Assembly (NCBI GenBank): GCA_003008705.1
Contig: PDUO01000017.1
Span: 695,032-759,031 of the forward strand
Source: Pezicula radicicola
Taxonomy: Eukaryota > Ascomycota > Leotiomycetes > Helotiales > Dermateaceae
DNA length: 64,000 nucleotides
Direction of reading: 5' to 3'
The translations under genes were made by a program, and so were the position numbers. The notes beneath the pieces are model-generated. The model worked only from the letters and a program-made list of their open reading frames with translations, was not told the origin of the DNA and searched no databases. Positions 2,266-7,400 of the stretch are shown here, in pieces. Each line of letters opens with the position of its first letter. Positions within the stretch are counted from its first letter, which is position 1.

Positions 2266-5200
2266 TTACCCTTGCCACTGAACCCTCCCACTCCGAAACA
2301 AACTAACCATACCAATAGGCAACAACCCCAAATCAACAATATTCAACCCGCCAAATCTCTCAATCATATCAGGACCATAAAGAAGAACAACCCATCTCCA
2401 ATAAGGAGTCATACCATACCAATTTCCAGATATTTCACCACTGACCCCACTATGACTGATATTCACCTTGCCCACTTCAAAGAGATCGGATTTGCTAGCT
2501 TCAATACTTTCATCTTTGGGCCTTTGGAGTAATTGACAGAAATATTTGTAGAGGAATGGAGTGGGGCTGTCGTCTGAGCCCATGGATAATTCTTCGGTGT
2601 AGCGACTGAATTCTTCGAAGGGCATGAAGGTTCGTGGATCTTCTGGGAGGAATGTGGAATCTTCGGCGTGCATTTTCCAGGATCGTGTTGTGGTGCCGTT
2701 CTCGTAGTCGGCTTTGGCCTTTCGGTATCTTTCTTGAAGGTCGAGTTTGTAGTTGTTGAATACGGAGGCTGGGTCTTTTGTTACCGCGTCTCTGATTTGG
2801 AGCAGTTCTATGAAGGGGTTCTGGAGTTCGAGGCCTCCGAGTTCGGTTGTGAAGTATAGGTAGCCGTCTGGGATGTCGGAGATACCGAAACGTTCTTGGA
2901 TTGTTGACTTGAGATACTCGACGACGCTGCTGCCGTCGCTGAAGATACGACGTTGGATTCGTTCAAGTGTTGTGAGGATCATGTCGATGTGGAAACGGCC
3001 AAAGCAATTTGCTGGTTTTCCGAAGTTGGCGATAAAAAAGGCACCGCAATAGGCATTCCATGCTTGGATCCAGGAGAACACGGATTTCTTGTCGCGAAGT
3101 TGGGTTTGTAGTTCGTCGATGTGCTTATCCACCATTGTTTGGTCGATGATGAACTTTCCAGACGTGGGATCCAAGACGAGAAAGCCCCATCTAATTTCGC
3201 CGAGCGGGAGGGTAGGATCAATTGGAGCTTCGGTTGGAGTGTTTGGAGAATCTTTGTTGCGCAAGATTCTCACTGTTCCGGTTTTTCCTGCGCATGTCAA
3301 TACGATAGTTCAGTGAAGAAGTGGCTAGATGGGTAAATATTATCCACGCCCAGACTCTGGAAACATATTCAAGTACCTACCTTCATTAAGTGTGACCCCC
3401 ATGACCTCGGCGAAGTTTGTCACAGCACCCCACGCCTTTACAACAGTTTGCTGCGAAGGAGACCAGATCCAGAAGTCATCATGTATACGATGGAGTTGTG
3501 CACCGTCTGTGGCCTGGTTGACCGAATAGTCCAGAGCAAAAAGAATAACTTCTCCGAAAACTTCAGACAATACGTGCGACTGAGGTACACCTCTCTTGCG
3601 GTTCTGGATCTTCGCAGAGGATCCATCCTGCATAAACTTCAGTGGCGCCTCAAGAAATCGGCGAAAGAAGCTAATCCATCTCGCGGATACACCAAAGAAA
3701 GAGAGCACGGCCACGATGGTGGAGTGAGGCAAAGCTGGACCCCATTGTTGAAATTCTGACCGGGTACAGGTCAATTCTCCGTGGAGGTGTGTGTTAACCA
3801 GTATCTCTGTGGACAATAAATGGAGTAGGAATTGCTTCTTCTCCATACGACTTTCTGGCTTTGTCTCTTCATCTTCCTCCTCCCAATCAGATTCATCATC
3901 TTCCATGATGCCCCCTGTCGATGGTGTAGACATCCGCGGTGCTTTGGACGCTAGTTGCTTCCTTGGTGCTTTGCCACCAGTTGATCTTCGAGCGGTTTCT
4001 TCAACAAATTAGTGCTACTTTTTCCTAAGAGTGCAAGAGTAAGAGCCTTGAAACATGCCCCTGGAGTCGTGAGACAGTATTTCAAGAGCATGAGAACAAA
4101 GAAATATGTTGCTTACGTTTGGTGCGGCCAAATGTAACTGTGGATTGTTGAGCTTGCTGCTGCATGGGCTGCTGCGACATCATGGGCATGGCTTGCGCAA
4201 CGCGCTTACGCTTGGCCGAAGGGGCTTCTTCATACTCAGCCTCTTCTGCACCATCAACACCAGATCTGTCCTGTTGTTCGTAGTCCATAAGTTCAGACAT
4301 AAAGTAGATTGTCCTATAAATGCCTTGTCGTTTGCTTAGAACACTGGGCTTCTTGTCCATTGCACTTAGACCTAAGTAATACTCCCTTCTCTGTTGATCT
4401 AGCATAGGGATATCCTTTCGAGGTGAAGCCCAGGCTTCATCGAAGTCGGCGAAATTGTTGAAGGCTTGCTTGAAGAAAACCGACCACTTAACTCCAATAA
4501 ATTGTAGGAAGATGGCCTGAAGCAAGTCTTCATGCATGTGGATGTGATACCGGCCAGTGACGTGTCTACGTTGCTCGATAGCCACAGAGGTGTCCCTAGA
4601 AATTCGGGGTTAGTTTACTTGTTCTACATATTATTGAGGGTAATTCAAACATGATTCAGGAAAAATGAGTAATGGAACACGGAAGGGGCGAATTCGCTCC
4701 GAGAACATGACTTACCATGTCCATGTATCCAAGGCCGTAAATCGCATATTCATTACATCGGCAATCTCGATTAATATGACCGGATTCGCTAGGAAATCTT
4801 TCAATACTGCTCTCTTCTCGTCCGTCAGTAGGTCGGAGGATAGCAGGCCGCCGATTGCCCAACGAAGTGAGTGAACACTGAATTGATTGACACTGGCTAG
4901 GGTATATTCAAAGCTTTGAACAGCCTTCCTTATACCATCCAAGGCTTTGAGTGCTTGCTTGTTTGAACCATTCTTGCCGAAAAGTGTACGGAGGAACTGG
5001 CCAATGGCTTGTTGGTTGGTCTCGAATGGAGTAAAGACCAAATTTTCCCATTCCGCTCTTGACTGATCCCTTTCGATATTTTCTTTCTTGCTTATTTCTT
5101 CAAAGCCTTCCATTTCAACATCTTCTGAGGCGACTGGCGCAGTAGCCTTCTCTTCGGACAACCACTCCGTTACAAGTTCGCCATACAGGGTGGCGTATTT

Positions 5201-5575
5201 GTACTTTAGAGATTGTACATTTACTTCCTGGGTAAGAGATTCTTCCCAATCTTGAAGTAGCTTTGAGGAGACAGAGGGGTCATAGCGGGCTTGTTCGAGG
5301 AAGCGTTCGATATTTTTGAGTTTGATTTCAAGATCAACATTTCCTGAGCTGTTGTGGATTATGCGTCCGGCAGCGTTTGTCTTGATAGAGAAACATCGCT
5401 TCACACCGTCAACGAGTTTACGGAGTCTCTCCTTTTGATCCAATTCAGATTGGGTTGAAGTGAGAAGATCTTCCTTCTGGCTTTCGAAGATGGCACGTTT
5501 CTTGGAGAGCTCGTTGAGCTTTGTGTTGGTGATTGACTGGAGGGTCTCCGAATACACACTACCAGAGGAAGCCAT
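2266..5575 (-). CDS. rvt: Domesticated reverse transcriptase, rvt family
   Basis: A single-copy cellular reverse transcriptase-related protein of the fungal rvt class (non-mobile, intron-bearing RT genes described from Neurospora and other fungi). Exons in transcript order are 5575-4716, 4595-4117, 3998-3381 and 3287-2266, joining in phase to 992 aa. The N-terminus is Lys/Glu-rich and probably coiled coil (about residues 1-190). Then come the family-like [14 protein letters not shown] and GVKWSVFF segments, a long insertion (about 375-500) with an AKRKR basic patch, a Gln-rich run and an H3-tail-like stretch (443-476). RT motifs follow: RGVPQSH (B, about 582-588), RIHDDFWIW with the catalytic Asp pair (C, 620-621) and LNEGKTG (D), the last made by splicing. 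I could not place the motif A Asp with certainty. No LTR, poly-A tail, endonuclease or target duplication is seen. The start at 5575 is preferred over an in-frame ATG at 5599 for its context. The stop TAA overlaps a donor-like GTAAGT, so a further 3' exon is possible. Confidence 0.87.
3910..4129 (-). other. Histone H3 N-terminal tail-like segment inside rvt, split by an intron
   Basis: Spliced codons 443-476 of rvt read [34 protein letters not shown]. Against the H3 tail, residues 2-34 match at 29 of 33 positions. The differences are K9 to R, A25 to P, K27 to M and A29 to T; A1 is G. The first four codons end exon 2 (to 4117) and the rest begins exon 3 (from 3998), so the 118-bp intron splits the codon equal to H3 Q5. 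The acceptor is supported by CACTAAT just upstream and by stops in the alternative joins. An acidic stretch follows at once, as if the tail were tethered. Confidence 0.85.
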
Positions 5576-6709: not shown

Positions 6710-6950
6710 GATCACAACTTCACAAGTCCCGTGATAGTAGTACATGATGGCAACCTCAGGAACTCTAGAAGAGAAATAGACTAGATTCTAAGAAAATCCC
6801 AACTCGCCATCATGATGCTGTATGTGTTCTTGGCAGGTCTGGGGTTCTTCGCCTTGAACCCACCTAGTCAACAAGGTTGAAGGGCTGCTAATGAACACCA
6901 CAAGTGGCAGTAGATGGGGCAATCTTTTCACTACTAGTAATAGTAATCTA

Positions 6951-7149
6951 CCGTACGAATTGGTTTATAAGAGATCATTTTCATTAGGGCAGCCAAGTTA
7001 CCCAAGTGAACTAAGTTACTCAAATCAATTAAGTTACTCGGATCTAGTGAGTTACCCAAATCAAGTGGGTTACTCAAATCAAGTGGGTTACCCAAATCAT
7101 CCGAATAGACATCAATTTAAAACGATCTCTTATAAACCAATTTGTACGG
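6951..7149. mobile_element. MITE with 31-bp terminal inverted repeats and TA flanks
   Basis: The left end 6951-6981 and the right end 7149-7119 (reverse complement) match at 29 of 31 positions, beginning CCGTAC and reading AATTGGTTTATAAGAGATC. The element is 199 bp and is flanked by TA on both sides (6949-6950, 7150-7151), as expected for Tc1/mariner-type insertion. It has no coding capacity. The interior is mostly a six-unit 18-bp tandem array. It lies between the 3' end of the acylphosphatase gene and the promoter of the 2EXR gene. Confidence 0.8.
6995..7102 (+). repeat. Six 18-bp tandem units inside the MITE
   Basis: Six consecutive 18-mers of the form RRGTTACYCAAATCAAGT can be laid end to end. 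Units 2, 4 and 5 are closest to consensus, and units 1, 3 and 6 diverge. The same unit in reverse orientation is found at 8814-8915. Confidence 0.8.
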
Positions 7150-7400
7150 TATTTAGATGAAGGCTCAAAGTCACCAATTGAAAGAGTGGCTTTTCACAGC
7201 TCATCCTTCTTTATTCTTTGCTTTATTCATCACCGGCGTACATTTTGGCGCACAGTGTTGAGGAAGGAGCCTGGTGCGCAAAATGAAAAAGGAAAGCACG
7301 TGCCTCGCTTCCTTCCACTACATCTTGAGCAACCCAGCATCTTCTCTCTTCTCCATTTCCCCTTGCCTTCAGTCCTCTATACTTCAGTCTGCCAGTCAAG

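Follow-up and report, generated by a model that had tools for sequence, protein, structure and literature searches.

Histone-tail-like blocks in a hypervariable loop of fungal rvt-type reverse transcriptases

Why should a reverse transcriptase (RT) gene of a fungus encode, in the middle of its protein, a stretch that reads as the N-terminal tail of histone H3? The question is raised by the window, the whole stretch of 64,000 nucleotides of Pezicula radicicola DNA analysed here (contig PDUO01000017.1, positions 695,032 to 759,031 of the forward strand), which contains a gene of the rvt type. To our knowledge, genes of this type occur widely, and what they do for the cell has yet to be settled. 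The original prediction, made from the letters of the window, took the stretch for an H3 mimic that could be written, read or erased like H3 itself and that would thereby tie a cellular RT to chromatin. The features on which the argument turns are the following.

2266..5575, minus strand: rvt gene of four exons, spliced in frame; the Coleophoma homologue P0001 matches it over its full length and is 64% identical
5575-4716, 4595-4117, 3998-3381 and 3287-2266, minus strand: the rvt exons, with GT/AG introns between them
3853..4267, minus strand: loop, about residues 397-495, interrupted by an intron; hypervariable in relatives and predicted to be disordered (P0001 model)
4202..4213, minus strand: basic patch KRKR, residues 415-418 (spliced translation)
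4117..4129, minus strand: H3-tail block, part one, GRTK and the first base of the Q5 codon (spliced translation)
3999..4116, minus strand: intron of 118 nt within the H3-tail block, phase 1 in the Q5 codon (splicing)
3910..3998, minus strand: H3-tail block, part two, the rest of Q5 to G34 (spliced translation)
3868..3903, minus strand: acidic run after the H3 block, residues 479-490 (spliced translation)
3565..3597, minus strand: RT motif B-like stretch (conserved alignment columns)
3475..3483, minus strand: RT motif C-like HDD, with D592 in 57/62 and D593 in 56/62 rows of alignment A1 (P0001 numbering)

Conceptual splicing of the window DNA joins the four exons in frame to give 992 amino acids plus a stop. 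Residues 443-476 of this protein equal H3 1-34 at 29/34 positions, or 29/33 over H3 2-34, so both the coordinates and the count given in the original prediction are correct in the spliced translation. The block departs from H3 by A1G, K9R, A25P, K27M and A29T; two lysines are lost in this way (K9 to R, K27 to M), and K4, K14, K18 and K23 are retained. When the whole protein is compared with PDB sequences by phmmer, H3 N-tails are matched by residues 443-480 (best E 4.4e-11). As had also been claimed, the block lies upstream of the catalytic motifs, between the basic KRKR patch (4202..4213), which we take to be like a classical nuclear localization signal (NLS), and the acidic run. The similarity ends after the tail; a whole H3 domain in the window was considered and rejected, as none of the genome's eight PF00125 matches falls there.

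A recent copy of H3, or gene conversion from it, can be rejected as well. In the genome's own H3 gene (on contig C79) the first intron falls in the R8 codon, unlike the intron of the rvt block, which lies in the Q5 codon. Codons are common to the block and H3 at 8 of the 29 matching residues, and 9.4 would be expected from the codon usage of the gene. So few common codons indicate that the likeness has been kept or made at the protein level rather than by recent copying of H3. An assembly or gene-model artefact is also rejected, on the window DNA together with the homologues. Elsewhere in the window, at positions 6949-7151, an 18-nt tandem repeat is enclosed by a 33-nt inverted repeat (94%); together they make up a small MITE-like element.

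The enzyme that carries the block is related to RTs of defence type. The window protein matches the PADLOC family RT_UG37 in three stretches (E 2.8e-68) and Drt9 (E 2.3e-9), and P0001 matches RT_UG37 over residues 11-780 (E 1.6e-69); RT_UG37 is listed in PADLOC as a candidate family of bacterial anti-phage defence. In Pfam, RVT_1 is weak in the window protein (E 0.0023, below the cut-off), and a call of DUF3295 over the loop, equally weak and also below the cut-off (E 0.0024), was disregarded. The top Foldseek matches of the P0001 model are R2, LINE-1, DRT9 and group II RTs; normalised to query length, their TM-scores are low, about 0.2-0.3. With RTs leading these matches and the motif B-like and HDD columns conserved, the protein appears to be an rvt-type RT with catalytic core motifs B and C, the names that we assign to the stretches at 3565..3597 and 3475..3483. 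A contig scan with alignment A1 (described below) for bacterial relatives gave 35 pattern matches, none of which was confirmed by tblastn.

We assume that the window family is the same as that of N. crassa RVT. In PMC10680173, rvt is a single-copy cellular gene whose intact catalytic residues are required for stress relief, and PMC3520738 describes a sharp rise of N. crassa RVT on inhibition of protein synthesis. Single copy does not hold in Pezicula, the genome of which contains three rvt-like genes. The other two (G000:C97:322679-325450, L038, and G000:C77:64012-66501, L039) are 35-49% identical to P0001 in the matched pieces, and each has a short acidic loop without a histone module in the frames read; thus, an rvt does not need the block.

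The loop itself had been expected to be exposed, and modelling agrees. The AlphaFold2 model of P0001 has a mean pLDDT of 82, but residues 409-459, which include the H3 block of this homologue (416-449), fall below 50, so the loop is predicted to be disordered and exposed.

Homologues were collected in two rounds. The first, over 5.8 billion proteins, gave 530, from which the best 120 were taken; the second, with P0117 of Clonostachys as query, gave 740, again with the best 120 taken. The set examined consists of 224 proteins, the window protein and 223 homologues. Throughout this set the loop, at about residues 390-498, occupies one fixed place between conserved parts of the protein and is hypervariable in sequence. 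Candidate modules were scored in each loop with 200 shuffles per module; the threshold was set at 99.95% of the shuffles, and the highest of all shuffle scores served as a stricter bar. An H3-tail module exceeds the threshold in 120/224 loops (114 above the highest shuffle score), an H4-tail module in 50/224 (20), a module resembling the N-terminus of Sub2 in 13/224 (5), and a module called QQNKKR in 12/224 (11). For the Sub2-type module, DLIDYSDEE, a native source is found in the Pezicula genome, where one gene start reads MSAEEDLIDYSDEEL; we take this gene to be Sub2. Ends of H2A, H2B, the Pol II CTD, actin, tubulin, Hsp90, ubiquitin and eEF1A exceed the shuffle threshold in none of the 224 loops, and the ribosomal P-stalk, which does so in 2/224 with neither above the highest shuffle score, is not claimed. 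H3 and H4 modules occur together in 25 loops, and either one or both in 145; 63 of the 224 loops are without any scored module. By a simple pattern search, the H4 core precedes the H3 core in 8 loops and follows it in 19. An acidic window follows the block in 97/120 of the H3 loops.

The original prediction had judged a chance match not credible, and this judgement is borne out: over the 224 loops, 200 shuffled H3 tails never score above 60, and the real tail does so in 114. Chance likeness from a basic, low-complexity loop is excluded by shuffled tails and by shuffled loops. On sequence grounds, then, the loop is a case of histone-tail sequence in a non-histone protein beyond chance. Retention of the block at the loop position is seen in 114-120 of the 224 proteins, P0001 among them. 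Species with an H3 block are found in Leotiomycetes, Sordariomycetes, Dothideomycetes, Lecanoromycetes and Eurotiomycetes (one named species was looked up for each). Close relatives lacking the block, which the original prediction would have read as a sign of a local artefact, do exist: among the proteins examined, rvts of Sclerotiniaceae such as Botrytis and Sclerotinia have no modules. Since many other relatives carry the block, it is no local artefact.

In the best cases (P0117 and P0049) the block equals H3 at up to 32/34 residues. The likeness also emerges from the family as a whole. Alignment A1, which contains 62 rvts hand-picked from the 223 to spread over the list and no histone, was used as a profile against the PDB. 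Its first match is the DRT9 RT (E 3.4e-7), followed from E 1.8e-4 onwards by histone chains of the H3 type; among the best 60 of its 114 matches, the other 59 are all H3-type chains, including one labelled Cse4 and some H3-CENP-A chimeras, with about 415-454 of the model on about 2-39 of the chain. Three rvts (P0004, P0014 and P0054) are named 'histone' or 'histone H3' in databases, probably due to the mimic. Likewise, an antibody raised to the H3 tail, or a sequence search for it, may pick up rvts when applied to fungi. Three others, from Xylariales-type fungi (P0196, P0198 and P0200), have precomputed GST or hydrolase domains and are either fusions or merged gene models.

If the block served to carry marks, its lysines should matter most; this part of the original prediction fares badly, as lysine is the least conserved class across the 114 loops. 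Within their H3 blocks lysine is kept in 59% of 613 cells, arginine in 92% of 400, and other residues in 82%; the rows were picked for H3 likeness, and the contrast between lysine and arginine lies within the same rows. Changes of lysine go to R (90), M (52) and Q (40) in 182/253 cases; arginine changes to K in 12 and to M or Q in 10 of 400 cells, and R17 is kept in 97%. Among the six H3 lysines, retention ranges from 46 to 73%, and the one that is lost varies between proteins. The 39 good H4 loops show the same pattern more strongly, with lysine kept in 28% of 156 cells and arginine in 84/84; in the 25 best H4-like loops, K16 is M in 21/25, and both R17 and R19 are kept in 25/25. On a FastTree phylogeny built without the loop, changes per row in the H3 block come to 0.32 for lysines, 0.07 for arginines and 0.14 for other residues; T3 varies as much as the lysines do. 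For the 62 rvts the majority consensus reads RxxQTARxSTGGxAPRxQLASxAARxSAPS, in which the seven x are T3 and the six H3 lysines. There is no general shortage of lysine, since the upstream part of the same loops contains 144 K versus 152 R. Both K14 and K23 are lysine in 32/101 alignable loops and neither is in 12, and 18/71 fully alignable H3 blocks retain five or six lysines. Thus, a surface for H3 marks fits poorly, and a lysine-scrubbed pseudo-tail fits better. Because replacement strikes the markable lysines above all, the loop probably serves to lure proteins that bind tails, and is less likely to be a mark surface. Histone marks on the four lysines remaining in the window block (K4, K14, K18 and K23) could still be placed.

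Pairs of H3-bearing proteins have blocks that are about 0.7 identical at non-lysine sites, be the core 48%, 53%, 65% or 81% identical, and deviations from H3 are common to both members of a pair in 1-8% below 90% core identity and in 32% above. A stricter choice of 57 rows raises block identity to about 0.8 and gives the same picture. The flanking loop is 0.63 identical upstream and 0.48 downstream in pairs of at least 75% core identity, and drops to 0.26-0.30. The steady block identity and the few common deviations indicate fast turnover around a fixed target, H3, with blocks that deviate from H3 mostly independently of one another. Presence of the H3 block requires at least 35 changes on the tree versus a mean of 66 for shuffled labels, a count that leaves out 22 ambiguous rows; the H3 state is therefore inherited in part, with much turnover added.

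Modules of this kind are also present outside the rvts. With the 42-residue H3+H4 stretch of P0136 as query, 27 candidates yield 11 matches, namely six rvts of the set (P0136 included), P0224 of Fusarium oxysporum, which is taken as an rvt by its near-identical block, and four VIT-vWA proteins (P0225-P0228). The last four are the sole non-rvt matches; they were found through likeness to the query, and their E values are weak (0.059 to 0.96). H3 modules in 4/4 and H4 modules in 3/4 of them each score better than 300 shuffles: P0225, P0227 and P0228 contain H3 + H4, P0226 contains H3 only, and the modules lie in the C-terminal half. P0227 and P0228 carry GLGRGGAMRHRKV, with K12R and K16M as in several Fusarium rvts. 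A tail like that of the ribosomal P-stalk is present in 3/4 VIT-vWA proteins (the Pfam call in P0226 has E 2.1e-5, under the cut-off), and CTD-like stretches occur in P0227 and in the VIT-vWA protein of the Pezicula genome itself. The latter (G000:C76:282000-286500, L040) contains RGG repeats, QQNKKR, Pol II CTD-like PGYSPTTP stretches and FG-like pieces; module scoring finds no histone module in it.

Searches of the Pezicula genome with QQNKKR give five matches at E <=0.006, of which two, at 97% and 79% identity, are strong. Among the five are the VIT-vWA protein and an SCA7-domain, Sgf73-like protein (59% identity), and the latter suggests that the modules derive in part from transcription regulators. 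The motif QMQLMLLEQQNKKRLLMARQEQ, or a weaker likeness of it, is seen in 11 rvt loops (e.g. P0029 and P0203) and in unrelated Pezicula proteins (L021-L025). Queries with short H3 or H4 tails, taken exon by exon among the best candidates, retrieve from the genome histone genes and this rvt only. Two AT-rich, stop-filled H3-like copies at G000:C99:5619-6793 (L010, L012) are reminiscent of the RIP-damaged H3 copies, captured by transposons, that PMC6710886 describes.

What might such a loop do? The reading that we tentatively put first, as possible rather than probable, is that an RT of defence type displays the loop as a bait or decoy, to be bound by proteins that grip the exposed tails of essential nuclear proteins. 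The pseudo-tail would bind such proteins without being marked; the binder would be a factor of an invader, not a chromatin protein of the host; and binding would couple to the polymerase, altering its RT activity. An invader is favoured as the target because candidate defence RTs are the nearest kin of this RT, because levels of N. crassa RVT go up under translation inhibition and the catalytic residues are needed for stress relief, and because fast turnover together with copies of the ends of several essential proteins fits a bait better than a stable dock. Against a bait stand the 63/224 loops that carry no scored module and the fact that import into the nucleus, or docking on chromatin, would equally well account for H3 + H4 alone; the partly inherited H3 state (35 changes versus 66 by chance) speaks against wholly free turnover. 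The drop in H4 and Sub2 counts at the stricter bar (50 to 20 and 13 to 5) and the weak E values of the VIT-vWA matches also count against it. A broader proposal, which we regard as rather doubtful, is a bait-display immunity of filamentous fungi in which the RT and VIT-vWA families, unrelated to each other, show exchangeable, lysine-scrubbed tails (H3, H4, Sub2 and stalk) from one pool. If so, a parasite's tail-gripping factor would spring the trap, and the host's lysine-modifying enzymes could not mark the replicas.

Alternatively, an arginine-anchored pseudo-tail might hold the RT, unmarked, on host proteins that bind H3 and H4 tails, such as remodellers or histone chaperones. This docking on chromatin or chaperones is conceivable but somewhat doubtful. 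It would explain why arginine is kept better than any other residue class of the H3 block (92%, and 97% for R17) and why R17 and R19 of H4 are kept in 25/25, and the QQNKKR-like stretch (59% identity) in the SCA7-domain, Sgf73-like protein of the Pezicula genome also suits it. However, docking predicts inherited, stable loops, and instead there are many state changes and flips of module order (8 versus 19); in addition, it leaves the P-stalk-like tail in 3/4 VIT-vWA proteins unexplained.

A related possibility, which we consider unlikely, is nuclear import of the histone type, in which a Kap123-like karyopherin recognises an H3 or H4 tail and the tails are interchangeable as NLSs. According to PMC5677370, H3 1-28 and H4 1-34 serve redundantly as NLSs in budding yeast, Kap123 is bound through H3 K14, K23 and H4 K16, and binding is weakened by K14Q, K23Q and, mildly, K16Q. 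In the window block K14 and K23 are both still lysine and the neighbours of K14 are small, and a KR-triplet occurs in 36/63 of the loops without a scored module, as import would have it. Yet the lysines in question are poorly kept in the family at large (K14 and K23 together in just 32/101 alignable loops, neither in 12, and H4 K16 replaced by M in 21/25), 73/120 H3 loops already have a KR-triplet, and the Sub2 and QQNKKR modules are left unexplained.

The replacement of lysine by M, R or Q could also mean that the protein, made under stress, is a pseudosubstrate inhibitor of the host's histone-modifying enzymes, occupying writers while staying unmodified. K-to-M tails trap SET enzymes, and the direction of change is apt: lysine gives M or Q in 92/613 cells versus 10/400 for arginine, and K to R occurs 90 times versus 12 for R to K. 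We nevertheless think this distinctly improbable. The lost lysine varies (each is kept in 46-73%), so no single writer is targeted, and in 18/71 of the fully alignable blocks five or six lysines survive. The rvt block, being internal, would also be out of reach of those readers and writers that depend on a free N-terminus. Finally, that the block is a relic, a piece of an H3 gene which a transposon or the RT itself once picked up and which now drifts without function in a disordered loop, is highly implausible: H3 fragments captured by hAT transposons in other fungi (PMC6710886) and the two AT-rich, stop-filled H3-like copies in the Pezicula genome give it precedent, but common codons in the window are at chance level while 29/34 residues are kept, identity drops to about 27% in the flanks but holds at nearly 70% in the block (non-lysine sites), the change is specific to lysine, and an H4 module is present too.

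Whichever of these readings holds, a loop that imitates a tail provides a testable handle on the role of rvt, namely its binder. If the binder is an invader's factor, as the preferred bait reading would have it, rvts would represent a fungal decoy immunity built on an RT of the bacterial-defence type; a host binder would instead tie a cellular RT to chromatin or to histone import. Among the literature matches listed, which cover few subscription papers, there is no report of a histone-tail mimic in rvt or VIT-vWA proteins.

Several known systems invite comparison. Like published rvts, the window protein has full-length homology to Pezizomycotina proteins, several of which are annotated as RT-domain proteins or reverse transcriptases; its histone-tail loop is a feature that the rvt passages of PMC10680173 and PMC3520738 considered here do not mention, and its genome has three such genes rather than one. 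With the defence RTs (RT_UG37, DRT9 and AbiP2) it shares the RT_UG37 profile over most of its length and the DRT9 matches in sequence and fold, but it is a eukaryotic RT with a tail-mimic loop. The VIT-vWA proteins resemble rvts in their H3, H4 or QQNKKR modules and differ in having no RT. If the bait reading holds, the nearest analogues are the integrated decoys of plant NLRs, which are copies of effector targets on an immune protein (PMC5067614); these decoys carry whole domains, whereas rvts carry short tails in a polymerase loop, and it is the copying of host tails that the sequences show.

Histone mimicry itself is already known, and G9a is a further cellular histone mimic. As in rvts, a histone-tail sequence lies inside a non-histone protein in the BAZ2B linker and the HDV antigen (PMC5663869 and PMC6972770). 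Compared with such mimics, the rvt blocks extend to as many as 32/34 residues, combine H3 + H4 in some proteins, lose their lysines above other residues, and reside in a loop of a polymerase. What sets the rvts apart is the length of the copy, the pairing of H3 with H4, the loss of lysine, the RT host, and the sharing of modules with a second protein family.
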